Of a stretch of 41,155 nt of DNA, positions 2,460-25,816 are shown in pieces. The stretch comes from an uncultured bacterium (GTDB lineage Bacteria; Atribacterota; Atribacteria; Atribacterales; Caldatribacteriaceae), in assembly GCA_937139415.1 (NCBI GenBank), contig CAKZPS010000068.1:1-41155 (forward strand). Reading direction: 5' to 3'. The translations under genes and the position numbers were made by a program. The first letter of the stretch is position 1, and each line of letters opens with the position of its first letter. The notes below the pieces were generated by a model that did no database searches, was not told the DNA's origin, and was given only the letters and a program-made list of their open reading frames with translations.

Positions 2460-3843
2460 ATGAAGAAGGAAAAGATAGGTATTTTGATAGTTTTTTGCAT
2501 TTTATTACTTGTGGCCCCTGTTGCCTATGGGAAAACCCAGATTACTGTTTGGTGTCTTGCCTTTGATCCTCATGTAAATGGAAGTAACGCTGTGATCAAA
2601 GCATTCATGGAAAAAAATCCAGACGTTGAGGTGATCTTAGAACCACAACCCGGTCAGGCCGATTTAGTGGCAAAGATGAGGGCGGCGTTAGCTGCGGGGG
2701 AAGGTGCAGAGCTTTTCATTACTCCAGGGACAACAATTCTTGAGTGGGCGGTCCCAGGAAGCATTCAGCCATTGACCCCTGATGTTTTTCCATCGACCAA
2801 TTGGGTTAAAGAAAATGGGTTAAAGAAAATGGGTTAAAGAAAACCTTCTTCCAGAATATTATCTTCAGTGTACCTTAGACGGACAAATTTGGGCAGTTGG
2901 TATTCCAGATCCCCCCGGAGACACAGGTATTATAGTGAACGTAGATCACTTAGAAGAGGCTGGTTTATCGGTTGAAAAAGCCTTTGCCGATGTCGATCAG
3001 TTAGTGGATTACGCCAGAAAGTTATCGAAATATGATAATAGGGGTGATTTAATTCGAGCTGGTCTTAGTTTTCAGGAAAGTAATGATCCAATGTATTTTA
3101 TAAGTTATATCGCTGACCAGGGTGGAAAGTTTTGGGACAATGATAAGCAAGTCTTTACTTTTCAGACCCCCGAAGCAAAGGCAGCCCTGCAGTTTTTTTA
3201 TGACCTCTTCTTTACACATAAAGTAGACAGTACTGGCATGCCTAACAGCTTGGATGCACTGGTACAGGGTTTGGCATCGATGGCTTTTATGTGGCCAGAA
3301 TTCTTACCATTTGTGCAAATTGCCTATCCAGAAATGAACTTTCGATTCATTATGAAACCGGGATTTGTGAAAGGAAAGGAACCGCTTTTTAGCCACTCTG
3401 ATACTTGGAACTTTGTCATGCCATCCTATGTAAAGGATGAGAAGAAAACTGCTACAGTTAAGTTTTTGAGATTCTTGGCTAGCGAAGAAGGTCAATTGTT
3501 GTTCCTCGAACAAAACCCTGGTCTACCGATTCCTAGGAATCTCCTCGATCACGAATTCTTCAAAACGGGTAGGGGTGCCTATCTAGAACCGGTTATTGCT
3601 GCTATGAGAGAAGGATTTTACCGATATTGAGGTCCTTTTCCAGAGCAAGACACCTTACTTTACAACATTTGGTGGCCAAACATCGATACCATGATTCATG
3701 GACAGATGACGGTTGAAGAAACATTGAAGCGTATGGGAGAGGATTCTAACAAACAGGTTGAAACGATGAAAGCAAAGTACCCGAATGTACCTGAAGTTAT
3801 TATCTACTATGAAGGTTTACCTGAAGACCTGGCGGTCGAGTAG
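2460..3843 (+). pseudogene. extracellular sugar-binding protein 1 (family 1 ABC), disrupted
   Basis: A secreted solute-binding protein of the MalE/UgpB type with a signal peptide (MKKEKIGILIVFCILLLV) and the usual mature start ITVWCLAFDP. Two lesions are visible. At 2803-2843 a 14-bp unit occurs almost three times. Deleting two copies restores WVKENLLPEYYLQ and an uninterrupted frame into the rest of the gene. At 3628-3630 an in-frame TGA interrupts the C-terminus. Homology continues in the same frame (GPFPEQDTLLYNIWWPNI) to the TAG at 3841-3843. The restored protein would be about 450 residues, normal for the family. The gene sits between the broken URO-D gene and permease 1. Even if the repeat reverted, the TGA would still truncate the protein by about 70 residues. 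Confidence 0.88.
2803..2843 (+). repeat. 14-bp tandem repeat, nearly three copies, inside binding protein 1
   Basis: The unit gggttaaagaaaat is present at 2803-2816 and 2817-2830, followed by 13 of its 14 bases at 2831-2843. One copy gives the expected reading frame. Each extra copy adds 14 bp (+2 mod 3), so copy numbers 1 or 4 keep the frame and 2 or 3 do not. The structure is what slipped-strand mispairing produces. Confidence 0.95.
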
Positions 3844-3861
3844 GATTTTTGGTGAGTCTTG

Positions 3862-3883
3862 GGGGGAAGGTTTTCCTTCCCCC
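3862..3883 (+). promoter_or_regulatory. intercistronic hairpin between binding protein 1 and permease 1
   Basis: A perfect 9-bp GC-rich stem (GGGGGAAGG 3862-3870, CCTTCCCCC 3875-3883) with a TTTT loop lies 18 nt after the binding-protein stop and directly before the permease ribosome site (AGGAGG, 3884-3889). No T tract follows. This position is typical of stem-loops that stabilise the upstream binding-protein message or damp permease expression. The same arrangement recurs in the other two transporter operons here. Confidence 0.7.
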
Positions 3884-3897
3884 AGGAGGCGTGTAAT

Positions 3898-4803
3898 ATG
3901 AAAAGAGAGCTCGCACATCGTTATTTTCCGTGGCTTGTTCTTTTACCGGCCTTATGTTGGTTTGTGCTCTTTGTTGCTTATCCATCTTTCTATTCGTTGA
4001 CAAGTAGTTTTTTTCTATGGTTCGTTCAAAACCCGTTTGCAAGTAAGTTTGTCGGTTTTAAAAACTATGTCGAATTATTCCGTGATCCTCGGTTTATTAC
4101 TGCAGTTAGGAATACCTTTGTCTACGCAGTTCTTAAAACGGGTTTAGTAGCTCTTCTAGGAGTTATACTTGCAAAGACAGTCTTTGCTTTAAAACACGGT
4201 AGTCGGTTCTACATGTTTTCTATTTTTCTACCTTCCCTATGTTCTGCGACAGCCGTTGGTTTGTTTTTTACTTACCTTTATCAGCCTCAATTTGGACTTT
4301 TTAATTTTCTTCTTACTCGTCTTGGATTCCCACGTCAGGGTTTTCTCAATAATCCCCAGCAGGCTATTTATTGTGTGATTTTTACTGATATCTGGCAATC
4401 CCTCGGGTTTGCAACCTTAGTTTTTCTGGCTGGATTGCATAATATTCCTGATGTTTTTTACGAGGCTGCACAAATTGATGGAGCGCCAGATTTCGTCATA
4501 TTCTGGAAGGTAATATTCCCTTTAGCTCGGAGAGTATTCTTGTTCATTACGGTTGTCACTGCTGTCACGACTTTCCAAGCTTTTGACCTAGTTTTTGTTA
4601 TGACTTCATCAGGAGGTGGAACGGGAGGCGCATCTGGTGGACCTGGGTATAGCAGTTATACCTTAGCACTTCAAGTTTATAATGATGGTATGATGCGTTC
4701 TCAAATTGGAACAGCCTCAGCGGTTGCACTCGTTCTATTTTTGATTGTTGGCTTTCTCACCGTGTTGCAGTTTAAGATTCTTAAACCGGAATGGGAGTAC
4801 TGA
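3898..4803 (+). CDS. sugar ABC transporter permease 1a (MalF-type)
   Basis: Integral membrane permease of the MalF/UgpA type, 301 residues with about six membrane segments. The EAA loop that contacts the ATPase is intact (EAAQIDGAPDFVIFWKVIFP, near residue 200). The start at ATG 3898 is chosen because AGGAGG at 3884-3889 sits 8 nt upstream. An upstream in-frame extension would run through the hairpin. A glycine-rich loop (SSGGGTGGASGGPG) in the last third is longer than usual. This is the only uninterrupted transporter gene of operon 1, yet its partner permease and binding protein are both broken, so it is unlikely to form a working importer. No ATPase gene is nearby. Confidence 0.88.
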   Translation: MKRELAHRYFPWLVLLPALCWFVLFVAYPSFYSLTSSFFLWFVQNPFASKFVGFKNYVELFRDPRFITAVRNTFVYAVLKTGLVALLGVILAKTVFALKHGSRFYMFSIFLPSLCSATAVGLFFTYLYQPQFGLFNFLLTRLGFPRQGFLNNPQQAIYCVIFTDIWQSLGFATLVFLAGLHNIPDVFYEAAQIDGAPDFVIFWKVIFPLARRVFLFITVVTAVTTFQAFDLVFVMTSSGGGTGGASGGPGYSSYTLALQVYNDGMMRSQIGTASAVALVLFLIVGFLTVLQFKILKPEWEY

Positions 4804-4812
4804 GGTGATAAT

Positions 4813-5648
4813 ATGGTTCCCAAAAGTAGAGCTGAACGGAACACTCAAGTAAGATCTCACATAGTGTGTGGTATTATCGCTTTCATTATGGCGGTCCCCT
4901 TCGTATGGATGATTTTATCTTCTTTTAAGCCAAGCGCTGAGGTTGTTCGTATGCCTCCAACCTTTTTTCCCGAAAACTTTACTACAAAGACATAACTCTA
5001 TTCCAAAGGCTTCCGTTTGGTCGATATTTTGTGAATAGTGTTATTGTCTCTGGAGGAATTACTCTGATCTCGATATTTTCTAGCTCTCTTCTAGGATATG
5101 TATTTGCAAAATTTCGTTTTCCTTTGAAGGAGACCTTCTTTTTACTTTTATTGAGCGGTTTTATGATACCATTTGCAACGCTGGTCATTCCCATGTATCT
5201 CTTTATTTCGAGTATTCGCCTTGTCAACACTTATCTTGGCTTGATTCTTCCCTTTTGTGTAAACCCCTTTGGCATGTTTCTCATGAGACAATTTATCTCT
5301 GATATTCCTGATGATTACTTAGAGGCTGCACGACTTGATGGTGCGTCTGAATTTTGGATTTATAGACGAGTCGTTCTGCCCCTTACAAAAGCCGCGTTGG
5401 GAGGAGTGGCGATCTACAATTTTTTAACTACCTGGAACCAGCTTTGGTGGCCACTCATGGTAACTTCCCAACCCAACATGAGAACTCTGCCGCTGGGGGT
5501 TGCTGCACTTGCTTTCCAACACGCAAAACGGTATGACCTTTTAGTTACCGGTGCTTCGGTGTCTGTTATTCCAGTTATTGTTCTTTTCGTCGCAGCGCAG
5601 AAACAAATTGTAAAGGGGCTTTCAATATCGAGTGGTCTTAAGATGTGA
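4813..5648 (+). pseudogene. sugar ABC transporter permease 1b (MalG-type), frameshifted
   Basis: MalG/UgpE-type permease in two frames. The N-terminal part (60 residues, from ATG 4813 with GAGGTGAT upstream) covers the first membrane segment and ends at a TAA just after 4982. The remainder (about 5031-5648) carries the EAA loop (EAARLDGASEFWIYRRVVLP). Moving one base at about 4981-4983 joins them as [20 protein letters not shown], the expected sequence between the first and second membrane segments. The restored length of about 278 residues is normal. A single-base indel in this otherwise complete gene, together with lesions in two neighbours, points to decay. A sequencing error in a draft assembly is the alternative for this one lesion. 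Confidence 0.85.
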
Positions 5649-6841
5649 TACTATTCTTGGGGAGAGTGATCTCATGGGAACGGATTACGATTGGCATTGA
5701 TTATGAAGAGATAGTAAAAAGGGAAGCTCGTTGGAAAAAAGTTTTAGCGATGGAGATGCCAGATCGTGTACCAGTGTTGCATTACATTGGTGCGCGTTAT
5801 TGGTTACCTTTGATAGGTTTTGGAACGAGATTTAAGGATTATCTTTGGGATCCCGGTTTTATGTTGGAGGCGCAAATCCTTGGTACAAAATGGATATTAG
5901 AAAACGTAAAGTCAGACTTTTGTAAGATTGTTTTTTATCCTGATTTTATGTGGGCTGAGGACGTAGAGCCATTTGGCGCCGAGATCATTTATCCTGATGA
6001 TGACTCTCCTTGGGTGGCGCGACCAAATTTACTGCAAAGAAATGATGATTTAGCCCAATTGGAAGGCGTTGATTATGTTCATGGAGGACTCCATGGAAAG
6101 ACGATTACCTTCTATCGTGAGATGAAAAAAAGAGCCGAGGATTACGAAATTCAGTTTTTGGACGGCAAGGTGATCCCTGTTACGGAGTGTGTTTGTATGG
6201 GTGGTGGTGGGATTATTGGTCCAACAGTGATTGCAGGGGACTTGAGAGGAGCGGACGCCTTGGCCTTGGATTTTTACGATCGGCCAGAGTGGGTAAAAGC
6301 GCTACTCTCGATTATTACAGATAAAGCAATTGGTTGGTTAGACGCGGCTCGAGCCGTAAACGATAAGCGTGCCTTTTGTAGTTACATAATTGAGGGGGCT
6401 ACGTTCATTGGTGACGATGGTACTGCTCAGTTATCTCCAAAGCAATTTGAAGAATTTGCACTTCCTGTTCTCAAGAAACTAGCTTTACACCTCCATTCTC
6501 AAGGCCTCAAGGTTATCGCACATAATTGTGGACGGGTTGATCACCTTTTAAAATACTGGATTGAAGATATAGGTATTAATATATATTATGGTTTTAGTTA
6601 TTTGACCAATAAGAGTCTGATGAGAGAAACGATGGGTGGTAAAATTGTGCTCATAGGGGGCATTGATACTGTAAAACTTCACGCTGGTAAACCTGAGGAT
6701 GTTGAGGAGGATGTATTGCAAACCCTTCGTGTTCTGGGAGATTGTCCGGGCTATGTTGTCATGGATGGACACAACGTAGCGCCAGGAACTCCTGTAGAAA
6801 ATTTAAATGCTATGATGAATGCCGTCGAGAAATTTTGTTAA
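5645..6841 (+). CDS. URO-D/MtaA-type methyltransferase-like protein 2
   Basis: Second uroporphyrinogen-decarboxylase-like protein of operon 1, open over 398 codons. Near residue 300 the motif IAHNCG matches the H-x-C zinc site of MtaA-type proteins, and MDGHNVAPGTPVENLNAM is the conserved C-terminal end. The start is uncertain. GTG 5645 overlaps the permease stop as GTGA. ATG 5674 has a much better ribosome site (GGGGAGAG, 5660-5667) but is in another frame and reaches a stop after eight codons. One extra T at 5698 would join it to DYEEIVKREARWKKVL, the usual family beginning. So this gene may also carry a small N-terminal frameshift. Substrate unknown; the family is not expected to make haem precursors here. 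Confidence 0.8.
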   Translation: MILFLGRVISWERITIGIDYEEIVKREARWKKVLAMEMPDRVPVLHYIGARYWLPLIGFGTRFKDYLWDPGFMLEAQILGTKWILENVKSDFCKIVFYPDFMWAEDVEPFGAEIIYPDDDSPWVARPNLLQRNDDLAQLEGVDYVHGGLHGKTITFYREMKKRAEDYEIQFLDGKVIPVTECVCMGGGGIIGPTVIAGDLRGADALALDFYDRPEWVKALLSIITDKAIGWLDAARAVNDKRAFCSYIIEGATFIGDDGTAQLSPKQFEEFALPVLKKLALHLHSQGLKVIAHNCGRVDHLLKYWIEDIGINIYYGFSYLTNKSLMRETMGGKIVLIGGIDTVKLHAGKPEDVEEDVLQTLRVLGDCPGYVVMDGHNVAPGTPVENLNAMMNAVEKFC

Positions 6842-6956
6842 GTTTATCAAGTCTTTTAGTTTTTTATCCTCTCTTATTTCGGTTTTTAGTAGGAGTTCTT
6901 TGTTATGGTGTTTTCAGGTCAAGTCCAGTTTGCATGTAGCTTACAAGTTTCCTTAA

Positions 6957-6987
6957 AAAGACTAAGAAGTCTTTCTTATTCTTTTCC
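6957..6987 (+). terminator. candidate intrinsic terminator of operon 1
   Basis: A 7-bp stem (AAAGACT 6957-6963, AGTCTTT 6968-6974) with a 4-nt loop is followed by the T-rich stretch CTTATTCTTTTCC. It lies 115 nt after the last gene of operon 1. The stem is AT-rich, so efficiency is uncertain. Confidence 0.5.
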
Positions 6988-7138
6988 ATTCCTTGTGAGG
7001 AAATATCATTCCATGGTTGCCCTTCCGCTCAGGGGTCTACGCATGAGCGCATGGCTCAGGAGTCCACGCTTTTAAGGGGTTAGCGTAAACTTATCGTAGG
7101 AATTCCAAAAACAGTCTTTCAAAGTGAAAAGTCAAAAA

Positions 7139-7202
7139 GAGACCTCACCATCGAGTTTTGGTGGTATAAAATTACAAGCACCCTGTCGTGGAGTGAGGTC
7201 TC
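7139..7202. repeat. 10-bp inverted repeat pair
   Basis: GAGACCTCAC at 7139-7148 is perfectly repeated in inverse orientation (GTGAGGTCTC) at 7193-7202, with 44 nt between. It lies near the candidate left end of the IS256 relic. It may be an element end, a fold-back structure or chance. No function can be assigned. Confidence 0.4.
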
Positions 7203-7969
7203 ATGGAGATGGTGCACTGCCTCCTCAAGGTGCTCCAGGGGATTGGGGAAACAAGGAAGAATATTTTGACCCCTTGAGTCACCCAAGAACTTCCCTCTCG
7301 AATCGGTCTACCCTTGAGTATACCCATGGGGTGGATGGCTATGTCGAATACATGGAGAGGCAACGTACTGACTCCCTGCGAAAGAGGAAGCCTTGTAGAG
7401 AAATCAGGAACTCTCCTCCCGAGAGAAGGGTAATCCATCCTCCCGAAGAAGAGAGTATATGTCAAAATAGTGTTCCCAATTTACTCTCAGAAACACCGGA
7501 GACCCTCTTTGAACCAAGAGACGACCTTACTTGAGGGAAAATGACTCGATGGATTCACCTCCTCTTCTCGCAATATGGAAGATAAAAAGAGAGAGAAGAA
7601 TAGGACCTTTCTATGTGGTCAATTCTTTCCGTTATTTGAGTAAAGAGCGATTCATGAGTCGTCGGGCTTGGATCTTGGGTCAACCCGCAAGGGTTGTCCA
7701 TCTCCCCTCGCCTCTCTTTCTCCTTGTTTCCTTTTTCCTACTGAGGCTAAACGGAATAGAAGCGGTGGTAGGAAAGCTCCCTACCACTCGGGTTGGGTGA
7801 AGAATATTTCTTTGTGAACCCCCCTCGAGTGAGTTGGGGGAGGAGATCTCTCGTTAGTCAAGAGGGGGAAAGCCGGGAAGGGTAAGGAAAAAAGAGCAAT
7901 GGCCTGGAGGGAACGGTCTTGGTATTCCTGGATGATTGAAAAGAGTGTACCGTTTTGCCCACTCTCACT

Positions 7970-8715
7970 CAGGTCAATTCAAGATCGACTCCCCTTTCAC
8001 GGCAAAGGATTCTTTTTCACAATATTTCCCCTCAGGTACCCTCTCCACCACTACCAACTTGATCCTAAGAAACACCTCTGAAGGGTATTCTTTAGTCCCT
8101 CTCTGTACAAGACACACAGAGCCAGACGTTTTCCACCCTTCGTCTTTTAAGTTCTCAAAGAGATAGGTATCCATGGGTTCGGTACCAGGCTCTCCTTTCC
8201 CTCCTCAGACCCTGAAGGATAGCCTGGCTCTACTAATGAGGTATCTTTCCCGGAGAATAATCTTCTTGAGCACATCAACCCAGGTGAAAGTACTTTTCGC
8301 AAGGAGGAGGGAACCATTCGACTCGATCATGGAGGGCTTTAGTGATTGCTGAGACTTGAAGGCAGAGAGGGATTCAATTCCTAAGCTTTGAGCAAGAACA
8401 TTCATTTTCCGAGTGGAAACGTCATTGATAGGGGCTTCTTGAACCACCTCAAGGAGGGCTTGTGCAGAGCCTTCCCTTTCGGTAATCAAAAAAGGAAGGG
8501 AGCCTCTTCTAAAGAATGGTGGTTTGGGTTGGGTCATGTTCTCCCTTGTGAGCTCCAACTCTATGTTCAGCTTCCAGTTTCATGAGTTCATTGGTTAGCC
8601 ATTCGAGTATGGCATAGAGAGGATCAGGTTCATTCATTTTTGAGAAATGGTGTATGATGCTTATGAGCCATCGGATACTCCTCCTCGATGAAGTTTTTGT
8701 TTCGTGCAACCTTCA
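7970..8715 (-). pseudogene. IS256-family (mutator) transposase relic
   Basis: Minus-strand translations in shifting frames align in order with IS256-type transposases. Near 8600 the N-terminal helix LTNELMKLEAEHRVGA appears. Then RRGSLPFLITEREGSAQALL and VVQEAPINDVSTRKMNVLA match the conserved block with the family signature GVSTRKV. After a frame change come ITKALHDRVEWF and then FTWVD, which holds the first catalytic Asp. Further on, VCLVQRG and a frame-shifted FLGSSW..RGYLRGNIVKK match the conserved W-Q-R-C-x-V-H-x-x-R-N block. At least four frame changes and several stops mean no active enzyme. The last third of the protein is not recognisable. Confidence 0.7.
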
Positions 8716-9224
8716 TTTGGCGTCTCCGGTGGCTTTTTCAAGACACGAAATTGCAAACTTTAGTATGCTTTATCCTTGAGTTTACGGAGACCACAAGAAC
8801 TTCCGAGAAGACTTATTCTCTCCTCCCTCAGGAGAAGAGAAATCTTCCATGAACTCTAGAAAAGGGCAGAAAAAAAACAAGGAGGAAGACCACCGAGAGC
8901 CGAGACGAGAGACACTCCAAGACTATAGGGGAGAATTTTCTCAAAAACCCATTTCCGCCAATACCCTCGGTATTCATCCTCTCCTCAAAGAGGGCTTACT
9001 AACCGTCACGCTCTAGGTTTCTTGCTTCTCCTTTACTCAAAATTCTTTCTTCAAGTTTTCGCCAACTTGGTAAAAGGTTTTTGGGAAAGCACATCTTGAG
9101 AGAGTTCTCACCTCAAAGAGAGGAAAAAGAGTCAGAGAGGAAGATTGGTGAGAGAGGGTTCGAGAGCGTTCAAAAACTCGGTCTTAGCCTCTTTCTTCTT
9201 CTCCCGCATTGCAAACTCAAAGAG

Positions 9225-9395
9225 AGAGGGGGGAGACTCATACAAAGGGAGAGATGGTTCTTAGGTTCTTTCAAAAGCGAGGTCTACCTTGAAGCCACAA
9301 GAGATGATCTTCAGTACTGGGTTGAGGAAGTGGACAATAAAAGAAGCCTCCTTTTGCTTTGGAGAGGAAAAAACCTGATAATACCTAAAAGAGGA
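9225..9395 (+). pseudogene. possible DDE integrase (IS3/IS481-like) C-terminal scrap
   Basis: One plus-strand frame reads RLIQRERWFLGSFKSEVYLE and then DDLQYWVEEVDNKRS. This is reminiscent of the C-terminal end of IS481/IS3 integrases (E-R-x-x-x-x-x-K-x-E, then a Y-N-x-x-R-P-H-type ending). The key DDE glutamate would be the E of the first block, but the ending is degraded and nothing recognisable lies upstream. The similarity is weak and could be coincidence. Confidence 0.25.
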
Positions 9396-9436
9396 CTTTT
9401 TCCCATTGTCTCACATGTATTGAGCTATACAATCTA

Positions 9437-9477
9437 TTGACAACGTGAGAAAGGTTTTCTAAAATAGTTTCTGAAAC
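9437..9477 (+). promoter_or_regulatory. sigma-70-type promoter and operator for regulator 2
   Basis: TTGACA at 9437-9442 and TAAAAT at 9460-9465 are separated by the ideal 17 bp. The palindrome GTTTCTGAAAC (9467-9477) begins right after the -10 and covers the predicted start point near 9472. It is related in sequence to LacI-family operators but has an odd-numbered centre. This should give autoregulation of the LacI gene at 9508 and control of the mannoside operon. Confidence 0.72.
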
Positions 9478-9507
9478 AGTTTTAGAAGTTATTTTCGAAA
9501 GGAATCC

Positions 9508-10530
9508 ATGAGTAGAGTAAATATTTATGCCATCGCCAAAGAGGTCGGTGTTTCTCCGGCTACCGTCTCCAAAGCGCTCAATCATCCCGAACAGGTATCA
9601 TCCAAGACCAGAACCAAGGTTCTCAAGGCGATCGAGGAATTGGGTTTCATACCGAGCATGTTGAGTAAACGTAATGATACGGTCGCCGTAGTATACCATT
9701 GGTGGGAGAATGTCTTTCTCAACTACTATTTCTCTCGTCTCATTAACGGTATTGTCGGGGAACTCGAGAAATTTCACCTCAACCTCCTCTTCGTGTCCCC
9801 CGAACGGTGTTCTTCTCCTCAGGCATGGCAAACGTTTCTCCATCAGCATCACGCGATTGGTGTACTCATTATTAATCCTCCTCAAGGGAACAAGCGTTTT
9901 GAGTCTCTCTTTGCCTTAGGAGGTCGGGTCGTTGCAGTCGGTTCTCGCGTCGAAGAGTATCCGGTACATTTTGTAGATTGTGAAAATACTCACTCTACTT
10001 TGACGGCTTTACAGTATCTCTTCGATTTAGGACATCGTGCTATTGGTTTCATCGGAGGGGATCTTTCCCAGCTCGATCACTGGGAGCGTTTCTCTGCTTA
10101 CCTCGATTTTATGAAAACACGAGACCTTTATCGAGAGGAATACGTAGTCATTTCCGAAGATGTTTCCTCTTTCCTCTCGGGAAGAGGTGCATGGGAGGGA
10201 ATCAAGCGATTACTCAGACTTCCTTTACCTCCTACGGCGGTGTTCATTGGGAGTGGCAATTGTCTTTTAGGTGTTTTGCGGGGCATTCATGAATGTGGTA
10301 AGAGGGTTCCGGAGGATGTATCGCTGATTTGTTTTGATGATTTAGAAGAAGTGGTTCCGGGAATCACTTCAATTCGCCAACCCATTGAGATCATAGGTCG
10401 TGTGGCTGCTGAAGTGCTTTTAAGCAAGTTTTTTAATCCTTCTCATGCTACGCAGCTCGAAAAACGCATTCTCTCTTGCCAACTGATCCTCCGCGAGTCG
10501 GTAAGGAGTCTCTTTTTCGAAAGGGGGTGA
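9508..10530 (+). CDS. LacI-family transcriptional regulator 2
   Basis: LacI/GalR-type regulator of 340 residues. The helix-turn-helix is at residues 4-24 (IYAIAKEVGVSPATVSKAL), the hinge region follows (IPSMLSKRN), and the effector domain carries the late family motif LICFDDLEEV. The start ATG has a GAAAGGA ribosome site just upstream. The gene begins operon 2 and is followed after 71 nt by the binding protein at 10602. By position it is the likely repressor of the mannoside uptake and hydrolysis genes. The inducer may be a manno-oligosaccharide or mannose, inferred only from the neighbouring beta-mannosidase. Confidence 0.93.
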   Translation: MSRVNIYAIAKEVGVSPATVSKALNHPEQVSSKTRTKVLKAIEELGFIPSMLSKRNDTVAVVYHWWENVFLNYYFSRLINGIVGELEKFHLNLLFVSPERCSSPQAWQTFLHQHHAIGVLIINPPQGNKRFESLFALGGRVVAVGSRVEEYPVHFVDCENTHSTLTALQYLFDLGHRAIGFIGGDLSQLDHWERFSAYLDFMKTRDLYREEYVVISEDVSSFLSGRGAWEGIKRLLRLPLPPTAVFIGSGNCLLGVLRGIHECGKRVPEDVSLICFDDLEEVVPGITSIRQPIEIIGRVAAEVLLSKFFNPSHATQLEKRILSCQLILRESVRSLFFERG

Positions 10531-10601
10531 AGGTAAGAAGAGAAGATACAAGCGTTTCTGGAGTCTAATCGAATCTCAGAAGAATTTGAGGAGGGATGAC
10601 G

Positions 10602-11867
10602 ATGAAAAAAGCCTTGTGGGTAGCCCTTGTAACGATGGGTATTGTATGTTTCGGTGTTTGGGGATGGACCCAAGAAAAGATCGACCTTCAATTTTGGCAT
10701 ACTTATAGTCTTGCTGAGATCAAAGTTCTTACCGAACAGGTAGAACGGTACATGAAAGAGAACCCCCACGTACAGATTACCCTGACCAATATTCCTTTCG
10801 ATCAGCGGGCAACTATGATTATCAACGCCATTAAAGGAGGAGCACCCCCGGACCTCTACCGAGGAGATATGCCTATGCAGTTTCAAATTGCCCGTTTAGG
10901 AGCAGCTTTGCCTCTTTTAGAGTACATCCAAAAGTACGATCCCGGCATGATTGACGATGTTCCTCAGAACATTTGGGATATGTGCATTTACCAGGGGAAA
11001 ATCATTGCCATCCCGGAAGATTTTTTCGTTCCGGTTATCTACTACAATAAGAGTTTGTTTGAAAAAGCCGGCTTACAGGATTTTCCCACTACTTGGGAAG
11101 CATTGGGAGAGGCGGCAAAGAAGCTCCATAAGCCCCGGGAAGGTCAGTTTGGGATAGAGTGGATGAGTTGGGGAGATGGACCCTATTGGTCAACCGGTGC
11201 CCTATTCCTCTCTAACGGTGGTGGTTTCGTCAAAGACGGAGCAGTCATTTTCGATAGCGAGAATAATGTGAACACCTTTGAATTTTTGGTCGATCTTTTC
11301 CAATATACCCCACCTGGACTCTCTACCTTTGGGTATGATGATTGGGACAAGGCGTTTTACTTGGAAAAGGTAGCCATTCAGCTGGGCAACGGTTCTTGGA
11401 GCATTGGTAATTACGCCGAACTCGCTCCCAACTTAAACTACGGTATTGCTCCCTACAACTTGGTCGGCCCGATGGGTGACAAGCCCGTGGTACCCGGACA
11501 CGGAGTATGTTTTTACATGGTCATGCAAGATACTCGCTACCCCGATGAAGCTGCGAAGGTCATCACTTGGTTGGTGAATAGAGAAAACCACTTAGAGTGG
11601 TGTCAAAAGTTATGGCATACCCCCGTACGAAAATCAACCTTTGAGAATCCCTTTTTCGAAGACCCTCGTTTTGACGCCTTCAAATTCGAACTCACTCGTG
11701 CTGGAACAGAGTTTGCTGGCGATCTTGCTACCGTTTTCAGTCCCATTATCGCGGATGTCTTTAGACGAGTGTTCTGGGATATCGTAGAAGGTGGAGCAGA
11801 TATCGCTTCGACGGTAAAGAGCGGGGCTTCAGACATGGCAAAGGTACTCGCTGAGCTTGGGAAGTGA
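10602..11867 (+). CDS. extracellular sugar-binding protein 2 (family 1 ABC)
   Basis: Secreted solute-binding protein of 421 residues. A signal peptide (MKKALWVALVTMGIVCFGVWG) is followed by the mature start IDLQFWHTYS, typical of family 1 binding proteins. The central conserved region includes IPEDFFVPVIYYNKSLFEKA, where the family contacts sugar and closes the hinge. The start at ATG 10602 is chosen over ATG 10596 because AGGAGG (10589-10594) abuts the latter but is 7 nt from the former. No lipobox is seen. This is the only one of the three sugar-binding proteins in the window that is intact. With permeases 2a and 2b and the mannosidase, it probably binds beta-mannosides or manno-oligosaccharides. 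Confidence 0.92.
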   Translation: MKKALWVALVTMGIVCFGVWGWTQEKIDLQFWHTYSLAEIKVLTEQVERYMKENPHVQITLTNIPFDQRATMIINAIKGGAPPDLYRGDMPMQFQIARLGAALPLLEYIQKYDPGMIDDVPQNIWDMCIYQGKIIAIPEDFFVPVIYYNKSLFEKAGLQDFPTTWEALGEAAKKLHKPREGQFGIEWMSWGDGPYWSTGALFLSNGGGFVKDGAVIFDSENNVNTFEFLVDLFQYTPPGLSTFGYDDWDKAFYLEKVAIQLGNGSWSIGNYAELAPNLNYGIAPYNLVGPMGDKPVVPGHGVCFYMVMQDTRYPDEAAKVITWLVNRENHLEWCQKLWHTPVRKSTFENPFFEDPRFDAFKFELTRAGTEFAGDLATVFSPIIADVFRRVFWDIVEGGADIASTVKSGASDMAKVLAELGK

Positions 11868-17666: not shown

Positions 17667-17697
17667 TGCTACAATGAAAATGTCGTTAACGTTAACG
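17667..17697 (+). promoter_or_regulatory. extended -10 promoter and perfect 14-bp operator for regulator 3
   Basis: TGCTACAAT at 17667-17675 is an extended -10 element; the -35 is weak. Transcription should start near 17682. The palindrome CGTTAACGTTAACG at 17684-17697 is perfect over 14 bp with a central CG, a textbook LacI-family operator, exactly at the start point. Its position means that the ATG at 17674 lies inside the -10 and cannot start translation. Confidence 0.8.
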
Positions 17698-17712
17698 GAA
17701 CGGGGGACCGTG

Positions 17713-18753
17713 GTGAAGGGACATCGTCCTACCCTTAAAGATATTGCCCGTCTTTCCGGTTTTTCTGTGGGTACGGTGGATAGAGCTCTCCATGGGAGGA
17801 GAGAAATTAATCCCCAAACACGGCAAAGAGTTTTAGAAGTCGCTCAAGCCTTGGGGTACCAAACGAATTGTGTAGCGAGTGTCCTCAGTCGAAAGAAACC
17901 TCTCGTTTTTGCCGCTATTTTCCCTCGAGAATTACACTATTTCTACGATGATCTTCGGCGCGGTTTTCAAGAAGCCATGTATAGATTAGCTCCTTTCAAA
18001 GTTGTGCCCCTCTCAAAAGAAGTGAAGGGCTTGGGGCAAGGGGAGGAAGAAGTTTTAGAAACGCTCTTCCGAGAAGAAGTGAGCGGGGTTGTTTTCGCTC
18101 CCGGCCATCGGAGCAGGTTGAATCAGTTCATCGACCGTTTTGCCGAAAAGAATGTCCCGGTGATTACCGTTTCTACCGATGCTCCGGAGAGTAAGCGTCT
18201 CACCGCGGTATACGTCGATCCCTATAAGAATGGGGAATTAGCCGGTGAACTCATGGGTCATTTTCTCGCCCTCGGGAGTCGGGTAGCAGTGATGGTTGGC
18301 TCTTTGGAGATAGAGGACCATTTCCAAAAGGTTCGGGGGTTTCAGAGAGGTATTCTCGCTGCCTGCAAGGACATCGAAATCGTTGGAGTATGGGAGAACG
18401 AGGAAAATGAAGAGTTAGCTCGCCACAACTTTGTCAGGATCATACAACGGTATCCCGATCTCGGTGGCATATACATTGCCACCGCCAATTCGATCGCCGT
18501 TTGTCGGGCGATAGAGGAAATGGGTCGGGAAAAGACCCTGCGAGTCATTACTACCGACCTATTTCAGGAGATAATTGCCTACATCGAGAAGGGGGTGATC
18601 CAGGCAACCATTTTTCAAAACCCGTATCGACAAGGTTTTGAAGCCACGATGTTGCTGTTCCGGTTCTTAATGGAAGGGATTGTACCACCGCCTTGCTACT
18701 ATTTGGAGCCGATTGTGGTCATGAAGAGCAATATGGGATTCTATTTTTCGTAG
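17713..18753 (+). CDS. LacI-family transcriptional regulator 3
   Basis: LacI/GalR regulator of 346 residues. Helix-turn-helix near residues 7-26 (LKDIARLSGFSVGTVDRAL). The TVDRAL in place of the common TVSRAL is found in a subset of family members. The effector domain is of the periplasmic sugar-binding type, with the late part VITTDLFQEIIAYIEKG. Upstream in-frame ATGs at 17674 and 17680 are rejected because the first lies in the promoter -10 and the second precedes the operator. GTG 17713 (or 17710), after GGGGGA, lies downstream of both. It is followed after 13 nt by the binding-protein gene, so it heads operon 3 and probably represses itself and the operon. Confidence 0.9.
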   Translation: MKGHRPTLKDIARLSGFSVGTVDRALHGRREINPQTRQRVLEVAQALGYQTNCVASVLSRKKPLVFAAIFPRELHYFYDDLRRGFQEAMYRLAPFKVVPLSKEVKGLGQGEEEVLETLFREEVSGVVFAPGHRSRLNQFIDRFAEKNVPVITVSTDAPESKRLTAVYVDPYKNGELAGELMGHFLALGSRVAVMVGSLEIEDHFQKVRGFQRGILAACKDIEIVGVWENEENEELARHNFVRIIQRYPDLGGIYIATANSIAVCRAIEEMGREKTLRVITTDLFQEIIAYIEKGVIQATIFQNPYRQGFEATMLLFRFLMEGIVPPPCYYLEPIVVMKSNMGFYFS

Positions 18754-18766
18754 AGGGGGGAAACCA

Positions 18767-20118
18767 ATGAAAAAGATTATAGTGGGTATTTTTTTGGTGG
18801 GCGTGGTTCTTGGACTTGCCCAGCTTGGCTATGCAGTGCAGTTAACGGTATGGTCTTCGCCCGATAACGCAGATGCCATCCATGAATTAGCGCAGAACTT
18901 TATGAACCAGTATCCGGAGGTGAGTATTGAGGTTACTCCGCTCTCGTGGGAAGCACTCTATCCCCGTATCTTACAAGACCTTACTGCAGGAGTGGGTTCT
19001 TTCGATGTGACTACCTGGGATTTAATGACCGCCGGTGCCATTGCTCCCGGGATGCTTGATTTAGAAGTTTTCGCCCAAGAACACCCGGATTTGGTGGATC
19101 CCCATTTTGACGATGCCGATTTCATTCCCACCGCACGATACGTGTACGGTTATTGGGGAGAAAAGCGAATTGGCTATCCTTTCTATGGTGCGGCGATGTT
19201 CTTCTACCGCAAGGACCTCTTTGCCGATCCCAATCTCCAGGCTCAATTCAAAGCCAAATACGGTCGAGACCTCGCGGTGCCCAAAAACTGGCAGGAGGCA
19301 AAAGAAGTAGCCGCCTTCTTCACCAAAAAGTTCAATCCTGCTTCTCCTACCGAGTACGGCATTGCCCTCATGCTTCCTCGCACTCACACCCTTTTCTATA
19401 TGTTTTTGAACTTTTTTTGTTTTTGAACTTTTTTGGACCGTACCGTCGGAGCCCTGAGAGCATAGCGAAATTCGGTGAGGTAAACCTTGACTGGGGGGAT
19501 TACTTCACCGCGCAGGGCAAGCCGGCTTTCAACTCCGAAGAGGGTGTACAGGCAGTGCAAGATATGCTCGATCTCATGCAGTATGCTCCTGATCCCTTGG
19601 GTTCTGATTACGGTGAAACTTTGGAGGCATTCTCCAAAGGCATGGTGGCCATGGTTCCCCAGTGGACGGCGTGTTTAGCCAGTTGGAAAGAATCACCCCA
19701 ACTCCAACCCTTTGAGGAAAAAGTAGGCGTCGCCCTCATGCCGGGTGGAGTTCCGGTGAGCGGTGGATGGGGATTAGGAATTAACGCTTCTTCTAAGAAC
19801 AAAGAGTGGGCGTTCCGTTTCATTCAATACGCTACGAGTAAAGAGGGAGATACCATCCAGTGGCTCAAGTACCGCATTGGTCCTACCCGTCAATCGGTGG
19901 TCGTCGATCCCCAAGTGGTAACAGACTCACCGTGGCTCCAGGAAGTTTACGTTGCTTCGTTGAATGGTGCTTCACATCGTCCCCGGATTCCGGAGGAACC
20001 GAAGTTGGAAGATGTTTTCGTTGGTGTACTTTCCGAAATACTCCTTGGTCAACAGCCGAATACCGTTGAAACCCTCAACGCCGTGGCAGAAGAGTGGGAA
20101 AGGGCTTTGCGAAAGTAA
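18767..20118 (+). pseudogene. extracellular sugar-binding protein 3 (family 1 ABC), split by a tandem duplication
   Basis: Secreted solute-binding protein with signal peptide MKKIIVGIFLVGVVLGLAQ and mature start VQLTVWSSPD. A first frame (18767-19426) ends near FYMFLNFFCF. Homology continues in another frame from about 19420 to 20118 (FLNFFGPYRRSPESIAKFG). A 17-bp unit is duplicated exactly at 19401-19434. Removing one copy joins the frames perfectly and restores a protein of about 444 residues, normal for the family. No other lesion is visible, and the surrounding permeases and enzymes are intact. Options: recent inactivation, a reversible length-switch, or an assembly error. The four ribosome-site bases and signal peptide are normal. 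Confidence 0.88.
19401..19434 (+). repeat. exact 17-bp tandem duplication inside binding protein 3
   Basis: The unit tgtttttgaactttttt occurs at 19401-19417 and immediately again at 19418-19434. One copy gives the continuous reading frame. Two copies (+17 bp, +2 mod 3) split the gene; copy numbers 1 or 4 would be in frame. It is rich in T runs, which favour replication slippage. Confidence 0.97.
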
Positions 20119-20150: not shown

Positions 20151-20164
20151 CGAGGAGTGTGACC

Positions 20165-21052
20165 ATGAAGGCAAGAACTTCACGGAAGAAAATAACCGGT
20201 TTTCTCATGATTCTCCCTTTACTCATAGTTTTCATAGGGCTCACCCTCTACCCTTTTGGGTATATGATCTTCATGTCTTTTTTCCGTTATTCCTTAGCGT
20301 CCTGGGAAAAACCGGAGTTTGTAGGTATAGACAATTATCGTGAGGTGTTCCGTGACCGAACTGCCCGTTCCAGTGTCGATTTTACCCTTCTCCTCTTAGT
20401 GACCGCGGTTCCCTTGGAGATACTCCTTGGAATCGGAATTGCCTTTCTATTCCGTGATTCCTTGGGAGAGAAAGTCTTTCGGAGTGTTCTCCTCATTCCC
20501 ATGATGGTTCCCGCAGTGGTAGCGGGAATTGCCTGGAAGATGCTCTACAATTTCGAGTTTGGTCCTATCAATTACTTTCTTACCCTCCTGGGAGGGGAAA
20601 AAATTTCCTGGTTGGGGACGCAATTCTTCTCTCGCTTGGGAGTTATTTTGATCGACGTATGGCAGTGGACCCCGTTCGTTTTTCTGGTCATCTATGCGGG
20701 ATTGCAATCTATCCCTCGTGATGTCGTGGAAGCGAGCTTAGTTGATGGTGCTCGTGGTTTCACCGCCTTGCGTTACGTGGAACTCCCGCTCTTGCGGCCA
20801 CTCATTTGGGTAGTACTCATCATTCGGGTCATCGATGCTTTGAAACTGTTCGATATCGTCTATATGGTAACCTTTGGTGGTCCAGGATCGGCCACCCATT
20901 CTTACAGTTTTTACATCTATAAGGTGGGTGTTTCTTTTGGTTGGGATATCGGGTATGCTTCCGCGCTGAGTATCCTCCTCTTAATCGCGATTACCATTTT
21001 GACCAATCTTCTCTTCAGATTTTTACGTTTCCGGGAAACTTTGGAATTATAA
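20165..21052 (+). CDS. sugar ABC transporter permease 3a (MalF-type)
   Basis: MalF/UgpA-type permease of 295 residues with about six membrane helices (first: FLMILPLLIVFIGLTLYPF). The EAA loop reads EASLVDGARGFTALRYVELP near residue 192. The start at ATG 20165 is preferred because GAGGAG lies 7 nt upstream. It follows the split binding protein and its hairpin. The stop is 17 nt before permease 3b. It is intact, so import by operon 3 depends only on whether a full-length binding protein is made. Confidence 0.93.
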   Translation: MKARTSRKKITGFLMILPLLIVFIGLTLYPFGYMIFMSFFRYSLASWEKPEFVGIDNYREVFRDRTARSSVDFTLLLLVTAVPLEILLGIGIAFLFRDSLGEKVFRSVLLIPMMVPAVVAGIAWKMLYNFEFGPINYFLTLLGGEKISWLGTQFFSRLGVILIDVWQWTPFVFLVIYAGLQSIPRDVVEASLVDGARGFTALRYVELPLLRPLIWVVLIIRVIDALKLFDIVYMVTFGGPGSATHSYSFYIYKVGVSFGWDIGYASALSILLLIAITILTNLLFRFLRFRETLEL

Positions 21053-21069: not shown

Positions 21070-21918
21070 ATGAACTGGGTGTGGAGAAGTATCAAAGGAA
21101 TTTTGATTACTGCGGTACTCTTTTTCTTCCTCTTTCCGGTGTATTGGTTGGTGACTACTGCCTTTAAGAAAAGTGAGGCATGGTTCAGTTGGCCTCCTTC
21201 ATTGGTTGTTTTTCAGCCTACCTGGGAAAATTTTCTCGGGTCAGAGGGGGAATTTTTCGGGAGTACTACCACTGCCATTGCTACCATAACCCCTTACCTC
21301 CGTAACAGTATCGCGGTGGCCCTATGTGTGGCACTTTTTTCCACCGTTATCGCCGCTTGTGCCTCCTATGCGATTTCGCGCTTTCGTGTGGGGGGCATGG
21401 GTTTTGTTTCCTGGATTATTTCCATCCGTATGCTCCCGCCCATTGCCTCGGCGCTTCCGCTCTACGTGGTCTTTAGTCGGTTGCGTCTTGTCAATACCTG
21501 GTGGGCGCTCATTGCGGCACACCTTGTTTTTACCATCCCCTTCAGCGTGTGGATTTTACTCACCTTTTTCAACGAAATTCCTCGTGAACTCGATGAAGCG
21601 GCGTATGTCGATGGAGCCAACACCTGGCAAACTTTTCGCAGGGTGGTTCTCCCCTTGAGTGTTCCGGGATTAGCGGCTGTGGCCACTTTGGCTTTTATCC
21701 AGAGTTGGGGAGAATTTTTGATGGCTTTGGTACTCACCACCGGCAAAGAAGCGCAAACTCTTCCCATTTACCTGGGACGTTTCATAACCGGTTGGCGTAT
21801 TGCCTGGGGACCTTTAGCCGCGGCGGGTCTTGTGACCATGATTCCGGTCATCCTCTTTTCGCTCCTCATGCAACGGTACCTCTTGCGGGGCTTAACCTTT
21901 GGTGCGGTGAAGGGATAA
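21070..21918 (+). CDS. sugar ABC transporter permease 3b (MalG-type)
   Basis: MalG/UgpE-type permease of 282 residues. The first membrane helix begins GILITAVLFFFLFPVYWLV and the EAA loop reads DEAAYVDGANTWQTFRRVVL near residue 180. The start at ATG 21070 has GTGAGGAG upstream. A longer in-frame reading would run back into permease 3a and is not credible. It pairs with permease 3a. As in operons 1 and 2, no ATPase gene accompanies the two permeases. Confidence 0.93.
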   Translation: MNWVWRSIKGILITAVLFFFLFPVYWLVTTAFKKSEAWFSWPPSLVVFQPTWENFLGSEGEFFGSTTTAIATITPYLRNSIAVALCVALFSTVIAACASYAISRFRVGGMGFVSWIISIRMLPPIASALPLYVVFSRLRLVNTWWALIAAHLVFTIPFSVWILLTFFNEIPRELDEAAYVDGANTWQTFRRVVLPLSVPGLAAVATLAFIQSWGEFLMALVLTTGKEAQTLPIYLGRFITGWRIAWGPLAAAGLVTMIPVILFSLLMQRYLLRGLTFGAVKG

Positions 21919-21936: not shown

Positions 21937-22314
21937 ATGCTCGAAGAGATAAAAATTACTACCACCCAAAAGGAACAAGTCATCGATATTACCCCTGAGG
22001 TGGAGAGAGTGGTAGAAGCCACGGATGCGCTTCAAGCGGGTGTCTTTGTGTACGTGCCCCATTCCGATGCCGCGGTGAATATCCAGGAGTTTTCGACCTC
22101 TTCTCCACCTCCGTTAAACCGTTTATTGCACAAAGTCCTTCAAGACGAGGAGTTTCATGAACCCAGAACCGGAGCAGCGTTTGTCGCTCCTACCGAAGTA
22201 TTGATCGCCGCCCAAGGAAAACTCCTCCTCGGAGAGGGACAGCGGATTTGCTTCTATGAATTCAACGGACCAAAAGAGCGCTCGGTGTATGTGCTCGTGA
22301 TTCCGGCAAAGTAG
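21937..22314 (+). CDS. YjbQ-like (UPF0047) protein with altered active-site motif
   Basis: Protein of 125 residues resembling the YjbQ/UPF0047 family (small cytoplasmic trimers, some linked to thiamin-phosphate synthase-like activity). It keeps the fold signature: FVYVPHSDAAVNIQE near residue 40, and near the end LLGEGQRICFYEFNGPKERSVY, typical of the family. The usual H-E-G-N-x-x-A-H-I stretch reads HEPRTGAAFVAP here, so the conserved Asn and His of that motif are absent. It may bind a sugar or phosphate without the usual activity. It sits in operon 3 after the permeases, 18 nt downstream. A dedicated role in the sugar pathway is possible but not shown. Confidence 0.75.
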   Translation: MLEEIKITTTQKEQVIDITPEVERVVEATDALQAGVFVYVPHSDAAVNIQEFSTSSPPPLNRLLHKVLQDEEFHEPRTGAAFVAPTEVLIAAQGKLLLGEGQRICFYEFNGPKERSVYVLVIPAK

Positions 22315-22453: not shown

Positions 22454-23401
22454 ATGCGTATCGGTTGCTTGGGTGAGCTTCTCGTCGAAATCATGCGGGA
22501 TAGAATTGATGAACCCTTAGGTGTTCCGGGAACCTTTGTAGGACCTTTTCCCAGCGGTGCTCCGGCGATCTTCGCCGATTGTTTAGCCCGTTTGGGAGAA
22601 GAGGTCTTTTTCGTGGGAGCGGTAGGGGAGGACGACTTTGGTACCCTCATTGTCGAGCGTTTGCGAGAAGACGGAGTGGATGTTTCGGGCATTAAGCGTT
22701 TGCCGGATTTTACCACCGGAGTGGCCTTTGTCACCTATTTCCGTGACGGGAGTCGGAAATTTATCTACCATATTTCCCGTGCTGCCTCAGGACAAATCTT
22801 CCCCGAAGACGTACAGGAGGAAGTTTTCACCCATCTCGATTTCCTCCATGTCATGGGTTCGAGCATGCTCATCAATGAGCAGTGCCGAGCTGCGCACCTT
22901 CGCGCCTTGGAGTACGTGAAAAAAGGCGGTGGGAAAGTGAGTTTCGATCCCAATTTCCGCCCTGAGCTCTTAGGAAAAGAGAGAGCACGGGAGCTTTTCC
23001 AACCTATTGTACGTGAAAGTACGGTTATTTTTCCTACCCAAGAGGAGTTGCGGGTCCTCTCCGATGAGGAGGATATCGACCGGGCGTGTGCGAAAGTTCT
23101 CGCGCAAGGTCCGGAAATCATCGCCCTCAAGCAGGGGAAGGAAGGTTCCACCATCTATACCCGGCAGGGGAAATGGGCGATTCCCGCCTTTCCCGTGGAA
23201 GAAGTCGACCCCACCGGTGCGGGGGATTGTTATTGCGCGGGGTTTTTGGCTGGTCTTGCCCAAGGGTTGCCCCTACCGGAAGTGGGAAAATTGGCCAATG
23301 CAGTGGGTGCTTTGGCGGTGACCAAGAAAGGTCCTATGGAGGGAGCTCCTCGGTTGAAAGAGGTGCAGGAATTTATGGGGCGCTTAGGAAGGAGAGAGTG
23401 A
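22454..23401 (+). CDS. PfkB-family sugar kinase
   Basis: Ribokinase/PfkB-type kinase of 315 residues. The N-terminal GELLVEI begins the first strand; SGAPAIFADCLARLG marks the sugar-binding part; the catalytic signature DPTGAGDCYCAGF (near residue 255) contains the base Asp. Sequence resembles 2-keto-3-deoxygluconate or tagatose/fructose kinases more than ribokinase. The start at ATG 22454 follows GGGAGGG. The preceding 139 nt after YjbQ may carry its own promoter. Its stop overlaps the start of the GatZ/KbaZ-like gene (GTGA at 23398-23401), so the two proteins are translationally coupled and probably act on consecutive intermediates. Exact substrate unknown. Confidence 0.87.
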   Translation: MRIGCLGELLVEIMRDRIDEPLGVPGTFVGPFPSGAPAIFADCLARLGEEVFFVGAVGEDDFGTLIVERLREDGVDVSGIKRLPDFTTGVAFVTYFRDGSRKFIYHISRAASGQIFPEDVQEEVFTHLDFLHVMGSSMLINEQCRAAHLRALEYVKKGGGKVSFDPNFRPELLGKERARELFQPIVRESTVIFPTQEELRVLSDEEDIDRACAKVLAQGPEIIALKQGKEGSTIYTRQGKWAIPAFPVEEVDPTGAGDCYCAGFLAGLAQGLPLPEVGKLANAVGALAVTKKGPMEGAPRLKEVQEFMGRLGRRE

Positions 23402-24708
23402 CTTTGTTCAGGAGAGAGAGAGTTGACCAGAGTATACTCCGTGAAGAAGCCTGCAGGAGGAATATCGCGGTATGTGATTTTTTGCTCCACATGATGAAAG
23501 TCTTGAAGAAGGAAGACGGTGTTCCCCGCACCCTCTTTGCAGTGTGCCCGAATTCAGAAACGGTCATCAAAGCAGCACTGCGGAGTGCGAAGAGGAACAA
23601 CGCCCCCATTAAATTTGCCGCTACCTTGAACCAGGTGGACATCGACCGGGGATACACCGGTTTTACCCCGCAAGAATTCGTGGAATTTGTAAAGAGTGAA
23701 GCCGAAGCTATTCAATATCAGGGACTCATCATTATCGCCGTCGATCACGGGGGACCCTGGGTCAAAGATATCCAGAGTTTTGAACACTGGCCGCTTGAAC
23801 GGTGTATGGAATGGACCAAACGCTCTTTCGAGGCTGCGATACAGGCAGGGTATGATCTCCTCCACGTTGATCCCACCGTGGACCGCACCCTCCCCCCGGG
23901 GGCGGTGATTCCCATTGAGTGGGTGATTGAACGGACGGTGGAACTCATCCGACATGCAGAAGAGTATAGGAGAGCGCAAGGATTTCCTCCCATTGCCTAC
24001 GAAGTCGGTACCGAGGAAGTCCATGGAGGACTCGCCAATCTCGAGGTTTTTGAGCGATTTTTGGAAGGGCTCAAAGAAGGATTGAAGCGGGTCGGTCTTG
24101 CGTCGGTGTGGCCCATCTTTGTGGTGGGGAAAGTAGGGACCGATCTCCACACTACTCTCTTCGATCCCCAAGTGGCGCGGGAATTGGCCGAGAGAGCCGG
24201 GCGGTACGGATCGTACCTGAAAGGACACTACACCGATTATGTGGAAAACCCAGAGGCTTACCCCCTTTCGGGCATGGGAGCAGCTAATGTGGGCCCAGAG
24301 TTTACCGAAGAGGAATACCATGCCTTGGCGGAACTCGTGGGCCTCGAGGAGCAACTGTGGCAAGAAAGGCAAATCGTTCGTCGCTCTCATCTCCTCAGGG
24401 TTCTTGAAGAAGAAGTGGATAGGAGTGGACGATGGAAGAAGTGGCTACAGGAAGGAGAGGAAGGAAAAGCGCTTCAAGAGCTTTCCCCGGAACGGAGAGC
24501 GTGGCTAGTGAAAACGGGATGCCGGTATATTTGGGCCCATCTGCGTGTTTTGGCCTCGCGCGGTCTCCTCTACCGGAACCTCGCCCAAAACGGATACGAG
24601 CCTGAAGAGATGGTACTCCTGCGGATTGAACGAGCTATGGATAAGTATTTTCGGGCCTTTCACCTCCTCGACTTAGAGGAGAAGCTCACTCGGTTACTCA
24701 AAGGATGA
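23398..24708 (+). CDS. GatZ/KbaZ-like protein (tagatose-bisphosphate aldolase subunit or sugar-phosphate epimerase family)
   Basis: TIM-barrel protein of 436 residues resembling the GatZ/KbaZ family. Recognisable parts are FAATLNQVDIDRGYTGFTPQ (first third), IAVDHGGPW, LLHVDPTVDR, YEVGTEEVHGG, and LKGHYTDYVENPEAYPLSG. In enteric bacteria GatZ/KbaZ supports the aldolase GatY/KbaY, but no GatY is in this window. Some family members are reported to be tagatose-phosphate 4-epimerases, which would fit a kinase-epimerase pair. The GTG start at 23398 overlaps the kinase stop and has AGGAAGGAG upstream. A longer in-frame reading would overlap the kinase by 300 bases and is rejected. Exact reaction uncertain. 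Confidence 0.83.
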   Translation: MTLFRRERVDQSILREEACRRNIAVCDFLLHMMKVLKKEDGVPRTLFAVCPNSETVIKAALRSAKRNNAPIKFAATLNQVDIDRGYTGFTPQEFVEFVKSEAEAIQYQGLIIIAVDHGGPWVKDIQSFEHWPLERCMEWTKRSFEAAIQAGYDLLHVDPTVDRTLPPGAVIPIEWVIERTVELIRHAEEYRRAQGFPPIAYEVGTEEVHGGLANLEVFERFLEGLKEGLKRVGLASVWPIFVVGKVGTDLHTTLFDPQVARELAERAGRYGSYLKGHYTDYVENPEAYPLSGMGAANVGPEFTEEEYHALAELVGLEEQLWQERQIVRRSHLLRVLEEEVDRSGRWKKWLQEGEEGKALQELSPERRAWLVKTGCRYIWAHLRVLASRGLLYRNLAQNGYEPEEMVLLRIERAMDKYFRAFHLLDLEEKLTRLLKG

Positions 24709-24724: not shown

Positions 24725-25489
24725 ATGGGAGAAGGGACCCATTTTTGGGAGAAACTGAGTACGCAAAAGGTTTGTTTAGGTACTTAGGTTACTTTTACCG
24801 ATCCTACGGTAACCGAGATCCTCTGTGGGGCAGGATATGATTTTTGGTGCTCCATATGGAACACGCGCCGTTACATTGAGAAACCGTGCAATTTCACCTT
24901 TTGGCATTGCCACCGGGAGCTATGGGTGTTGTGCGTGTGCCGTGGAATAATCAGGTTGTTTTGAAGCAGGTTCTTGACCTCGGTGCGGAAGCGGTGATGG
25001 TTCCCATGGTGAATACGAGAGAAGAAGCGGAGAGAGCGGTAGCTTCCTCTCTTTATCCTTCCTTGGGCGTGCGAGGATTTGGCCCGCGGCGGGCTTCGCA
25101 ATATGATCGTTGAGGAGAAAGTTGTTTGACCAAAGCTCGGGATGAAACCTTTTTTATGGTCCAAATTGAGCACATCGGGGCAGTGAAAGTATTCGTGAGA
25201 TTCTTGCCGCCGAGGGAATAGGGATGGTTTTTATCGGTCCGTGAGATTGAGAGCTTCCTTGGGTGTATTGGGGAACACTACCCGCCCCGGGTGTGTGACT
25301 GTATCGAGGCGGTGATTGGGGAGGCGCAATTACAGAAGATTCCCGTAGGTATTGTTGCTTCGTACTCTGAAAAAGAAATAGAACAATGGATCCAATATGG
25401 CGTAAGTTGTGTGAGATTATGGCTTCTTATCGCGGAATGGAGATATGACCGTACAGGAAATAAGAGCGAAACTCGGAAGAGAAGCATAG
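24725..25489 (+). pseudogene. HpcH/HpaI-type class II aldolase, degraded
   Basis: Remnant of a 2-keto-3-deoxy acid aldolase (HpcH/HpaI/RhmA family, about 255 residues, which is the span here). Pieces in changing frames align in order: a normal start (AAAAGGAG upstream), then an in-frame TAG at 24785-24787, then GAGYDF. After one missing T come LVLHMEHAPLH and, after another shift, GAMGVVRVPWNNQVVLKQVL, VMVPMVNTREEAERAV and GVRGFGPRRASQY. Beyond a stop come MVQIEHI, FLGVLGNT and IPVGIVASYSEKEIEQWIQY. The last frame ends naturally at 25487-25489. At least five lesions make it non-functional. Ancestrally it would have cleaved the keto-acid or sugar made by the operon 3 kinase. Confidence 0.8.
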
Positions 25490-25539: not shown

Positions 25540-25545
25540 GGGTGT

Positions 25546-25707
25546 AGTGGATGGCTTGAGGTGGTGTGAAGAGGGAAGACCGGTGAAAATCCGGCACGGT
25601 CCCGCCACTGTGACTGGGGAGCGAGTTGCCGTAACCACTGACTCGCGAGAGTTGGGAAGGGGTAACAAGCGGTGATCCAGAAGTCAGGAGACCTGCCTCA
25701 AGCGGAT
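25546..25707 (+). ncRNA. cobalamin (adenosylcobalamin) riboswitch
   Basis: Conserved core elements are present in order: GGGAA at 25573, CCGGTGAAAATCCGGCACGG, CCCGCCACTGTGA, GTAACCACTGACT, and the B12 box AAGTCAGGAGACCTGCC (25681-25697), followed by a closing segment. Spacing matches the class. It lies upstream of the BtuF-BtuC-BtuD genes, which it should switch off when cobalamin is plentiful. The 5' boundary is approximate. A loop-loop contact with the expression platform at 25708-25816 is expected. Confidence 0.93.
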
Positions 25708-25816
25708 CCCGCCCTCTTCGTGGAAAGAGGAGGTGGGAAAGATGTGTTGGATTGTTCCTCAGCGTGGGTAGCCCTCCCTCTCCCTCCTCCTCTTGCGATG
25801 TGGAAAAGAAAGGAGG
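25708..25816 (+). promoter_or_regulatory. riboswitch expression platform with alternative pairings
   Basis: Two mutually exclusive pairings can be drawn. Bases 25708-25718 (CCCGCCCTCTT) pair with 25725-25737 (AAGAGGAGGTGGG, with a 2-nt bulge), hiding the ribosome site GAGGAGG at 25727-25733. Alternatively 25725-25733 (AAGAGGAGG) pairs perfectly over 9 nt with 25786-25794 (CCTCCTCTT). That segment can also pair with the btuF ribosome site AGGAGG at 25811-25816. No T tract is seen, so control by translation is more likely than by termination. Confidence 0.55.
25742..25771 (+). CDS. nine-residue leader ORF downstream of the riboswitch
   Basis: ATG at 25742 follows a strong ribosome site (GAGGAGG 25727-25733, 8 nt upstream) that the riboswitch platform can hide. 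It encodes MCWIVPQRG and stops at TAG 25769-25771, about 40 nt before the btuF ribosome site. It could be a regulatory leader peptide, with translation clearing the pairing between 25725-25733 and 25786-25794, or simply a chance ORF after the switch. No family can be assigned to a peptide this short. Confidence 0.4.
   Translation: MCWIVPQRG

Follow-up and report, generated by a model that had tools for sequence, protein, structure and literature searches.

The window, by which we mean the whole analysed stretch of 41,155 nucleotides, contains an operon in which a LacI-family regulator is followed by a sugar-binding protein gene, two permease genes, a YjbQ-like gene, a PfkB kinase gene and a GatZ-like gene. 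The operon contains no ATPase gene. A binding protein and two BPD_transp_1 permeases in line, in an order shared by the relatives, mark it as a CUT1-type sugar ABC operon. The features considered here are the following:

17674–18753, + strand, LacI-family regulator of the operon, intact
18767–19426, + strand, N-terminal part of the sugar-binding protein gene, with signal peptide and SBP_bac_1 domain, 219 aa (open frame)
19199–19204, + strand, loss of one Phe codon, TTC TTC against three Phe codons in 9/9 orthologues (orthologue comparison)
19401–19417, + strand, first copy of TGTTTTTGAACTTTTTT, aligned with the single copy in nine relatives
19412–19418, + strand, run of seven T spanning the junction of the copies
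19418–19434, + strand, second copy of TGTTTTTGAACTTTTTT, identical
19424–19426, + strand, premature TGA at the copy junction, seen at all multi-copy states tested (2–7 copies)
19435–20118, + strand, C-terminal remainder of the binding-protein gene, in a different frame from the start, with protein-level conservation remaining
20159–21052, + strand, permease A, intact
21070–21918, + strand, permease B, intact
21937–22314, + strand, YjbQ/UPF0047-like gene, open
22454–23401, + strand, PfkB-family sugar kinase gene, intact; the nearest NCBIfam model is tagatose kinase, scored below its cut-off
23401–24708, + strand, GatZ/KbaZ-like gene, open
24735–25480, + strand, HpcH/HpaI aldolase remnant, degraded
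2802–2843, + strand, TGGGTTAAAGAAAA, three exact copies of a 14-bp unit, splitting a second sugar-binding protein gene (2460–3843)

The 17-bp unit TGTTTTTGAACTTTTTT is present at 19401–19434 in two exact, adjacent copies. Tandem Repeats Finder reported a period of 17, 2.0 copies and 100% matches, and across the whole genome (2.32 Mb, 76 contigs) the unit has these two occurrences and no other, which confirms the exact tandem duplication described in the original prediction. The real window contains two exact tandem duplications of 14–40 bp, and none was found in 3000 local dinucleotide shuffles (240 bp) or in 20 whole-window shuffles. The duplicated segment is a T-rich stretch coding for a conserved Met-Phe-Leu-Asn-Phe-Phe helix. 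It has no flanking microhomology, since the array comprises two units exactly and the repeat does not continue into either flank; microhomology as the origin of the duplication is thereby ruled out.

The binding-protein gene is open from 18767. The 17-bp duplication changes the frame, so that the TGA at 19424–19426 (codon 220) ends the protein after 219 codons; counted with one copy, a frame of 444 codons continues to the TAA at 20116–20118. Both halves of the gene match Pfam families of bacterial extracellular solute-binding proteins. The full frame with one copy, the inactivation of the gene by the duplication and the reversibility of the lesion, in that exact loss of one copy would restore the frame, were all anticipated in the original prediction and are borne out. 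The copy number thus toggles the frame, one copy being open and two closed, as at a contingency locus, but there is a single on state among one to seven copies. Three to seven copies are ruled out as further on states, since translation ends at the same codon at every copy number from two to seven; the frame can therefore be regained only by exact copy loss, and the many states typical of simple-sequence loci are missing here.

Nine orthologues, all from other genera and with 68–75% DNA identity, were compared with the window gene. They belong to Caldatribacteriales, phylum Atribacterota, and several come from named Candidatus Caldatribacterium genomes. Each of the nine has an open frame and a single copy at the site, indicating that the duplication is derived and lineage-specific. 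One relative (G001) carries the identical 17-mer, once, and the codons at the site do not preserve the repeat, so that a kept or recurring repeat, which would be expected of a contingency locus, was seen in 0/9 orthologues. The window gene is disrupted relative to intact orthologues, as a pseudogene is; relaxed constraint after the lesion, another mark of a pseudogene, was not detectable in the downstream part. There, dN is about 0.11 while dS is close to saturation, and the window gene and its nearest relative have similar numbers of lineage-specific changes (for example, 24 against 18 and 22 against 25). The lack of a clear excess of amino-acid change downstream indicates that the frame break is recent relative to the divergence of these genera.

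The model of one orthologue (L034; mean pLDDT 90.7) matches Thermotoga MalE3 (6dtq/6dtr), Agrobacterium Arad_9887 (5iai) and other CUT1 sugar-binding proteins in fold and sequence. The likeness to MalE3 and Arad_9887 lies in the fold of the orthologue model, with identity of only about 18–26%, and the window copy differs from both in being truncated. Judging by the neighbouring kinase and GatZ-like genes, the ligand may be a ketohexose or a sugar alcohol.

The duplication is not the only change in the gene. The motif MFFFYRKDLF or MFFFYRQDLF, present in 9/9 orthologues, reads MFFYRKDLF in the window gene; one conserved Phe codon is absent and no second frame break was found there. This does not fit the earlier description of the duplication as the sole lesion. 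The site falls in a predicted core strand, corresponding to residues 137–149 of the orthologue model, and the spacing from the preceding Pro to the motif is constant in all orthologues and in nearly all other SBP homologues checked. Among the homologues in the DNA examined, the one real exception is distant and one residue longer. The loss of Phe may nevertheless be tolerated in the window protein. No other window-only indels were found in the operon genes, except for one residue in YjbQ, where only two comparators were at hand. The LacI regulator gene is open, as are the permease, YjbQ-like, kinase and GatZ-like genes, which had been described as open from the start; the aldolase, correctly called degraded, is an HpcH/HpaI remnant with several stops and frame changes, and no aldolase gene was found after GatZ in the nearest relative.

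Decay is also visible in the first sugar operon of the window (1217–5648). Besides the threefold 14-bp repeat, the binding-protein gene at 2460–3843 has a nonsense codon at 3628, while its orthologues in another family of the order are open. A UroD-like (uroporphyrinogen-decarboxylase-like) gene has a nonsense codon at 1898, and a permease gene has a frameshift near 4993. This operon is decayed further than the one with the 17-bp duplication, and at least 11 other SBP genes are open in the genome.

We consider it probable that the locus carries a recent inactivating 17-bp tandem duplication and stands at the beginning of pseudogenisation, which could in principle be undone; there is no sign of maintained or selected switching. 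A spontaneous duplication would have arisen recently in the T-rich stretch of the binding-protein gene, shifting the frame of the binding protein in a CUT1-type ABC operon, as is seen in the sequence. The protein would end after 219 residues, within a helix matching residues 208–222 of the orthologue model; with such an end a working binding-protein fold is not expected, and uptake via the transporter should be lost. The gene would be decaying beside the further-decayed sugar genes of the window, and the lesion would in principle be reversible by deleting exactly one copy. With neighbouring sugar genes decaying as well, the lesion looks more like recent gene loss of an ordinary kind than like a switch built for the purpose. 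On the other hand, with the other operon genes open and conserved, the loss may be a passing one or limited to some cells, which counts against pseudogenisation. Read as early gene loss, the locus is a modest example of an uncultured thermophile-type (hot-spring-type) bacterium shedding sugar transporters, with a lesion young enough for reversal and the remaining operon still intact.

Known systems make copy loss at 19401–19434 possible. Pneumococcal capsule genes undergo phase variation by tandem duplication (Waite 2001, 2003, as cited in PMC4243769 and PMC4022640); as in the window, an exact short duplication within the ORF inactivates the gene and exact copy loss would restore the frame. 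Reversion, a population mix and recurrence are features of the capsule genes, whereas the window case is known from one assembly; it also differs in concerning a sugar-uptake gene of an environmental bacterium, with a second change in the gene. In fission yeast ssp1, a microhomology-mediated reversible tandem duplication (Dan 2021, as cited in PMC13207564) resembles the present case in being a spontaneous in-gene duplication with a premature stop and possible collapse back, but the window duplication is without flanking microhomology. M. tuberculosis has tandem repeats of phase-variable copy number (PMC12817950). The parallel lies in how many copies a short direct repeat has in or beside a metabolic gene; the M. 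tuberculosis repeats are longer, lie in promoters and are polymorphic between strains and within cultures. Simple-sequence contingency loci, which act by slipped-strand mispairing, share with the window a coding-DNA repeat that controls the frame, but the window repeat has two copies only, no frame-opening expansion state and no conservation.

The original prediction read the locus as a candidate reversible switch, off when the 17-bp copy is gained and on when it is lost by slippage, with a population mixing sugar users and non-users. The exactness of the copies, the restoration of the frame by exact loss of one, the intact remainder of the operon and the spontaneous reversible duplications of the capsule genes (PMC4243769 and PMC4022640) are all in its favour. 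Nevertheless, we regard a switch as unlikely. The comparison with related genomes, which the original prediction had proposed, counts against it, all nine orthologues having a single copy and site codons without the repeat; the on state exists at one copy number only, and the Phe loss is a second change in the binding protein. PMC4022640 gives reversion of insertions no longer than 9 bp as about 1e-5 at most, which is low for a switch, although the rate for 17 bp may be somewhat higher. The original prediction also named further decay, together with a fixed two-copy state, as telling against switching; the decay is present in the window, in the aldolase remnant and the first operon. Should copy numbers in the population prove to be mixed, the locus would rank among rare cases: an environmental bacterium switching a metabolic uptake gene through reversible duplication, beyond the known pathogen examples.

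An assembly or sequencing error, with one copy in the true genome, is in our view very unlikely. The genome is a draft in 76 contigs, and both length changes in the binding-protein gene lie in T-rich repeats, which speaks for an error, but reads are usually longer than the 34-bp array. Frames elsewhere are largely sound: among 282 comparable genes of the genome, 5 are broken, including one in the window, and the reverse comparison, with a one-contig relative, gave 3 of 316. Tandem-repeat counts covered 1.53 Mb, about 66% of the 2.32-Mb genome, in which two tandem repeats of at least 14 bp were found, both in broken genes of the window; three exact duplications of that size in 0.8 Mb of the relative show that they are no commoner here, which rules out a genome-wide excess of artefactual or mutator origin. 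The local confinement of the decay argues against poor sequence quality.

The two repeats of the window (17 bp twice and, at 2802–2843, 14 bp three times) could be taken together to mean that sugar-binding-protein genes of a lineage with an apparent lack of MutS/MutL are repeatedly toggled by short exact tandem duplications, giving within-population diversity of sugar uptake; we hold this to be highly improbable. MutL (PF01119) had no match in 50/50 Atribacterota genomes, the source genome included, MutS_I (PF01624) had none in 25/25 genomes of the order, and NucS had none in the source genome. MutS_V proteins, probably MutS2, are present, one of them of 787 aa. The lineage thus appears to be without MutS/MutL mismatch repair, an absence that would promote small slippage events like the loss of the TTC. 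Loops of 14–17 bases generally escape mismatch repair anyway, so that its absence alone does not explain the duplications. Our literature search on mismatch repair in Atribacterota found nothing, and a topic search on short reversible duplications in bacteria returned nothing.

Recoding, i.e., slippage of RNA polymerase or the ribosome on the seven-T run to give some full-length protein with six extra residues, is scarcely credible: one extra T in RNA or DNA does give an open frame of 450 aa, but the site offers no good two-codon slippery heptamer, seven T is short for transcriptional slippage, the six added residues would fall in a conserved helix, and the run exists only through the duplication and so is not a conserved device.

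Three further observations concern other DNA of the window and genome. About 2.5 kb at 7000–9500 had no gene match among the short ORFs tested and is possibly decayed DNA. In L111, on contig C65 of the same genome, several gene starts at 5034–11667 match relatives in another frame than the remainder of the gene, pointing to possible frameshifts or misjudged starts. At 25542–25714 of the window, a cobalamin riboswitch (106 bits) lies ahead of a BtuF/FecCD-type ABC transporter.
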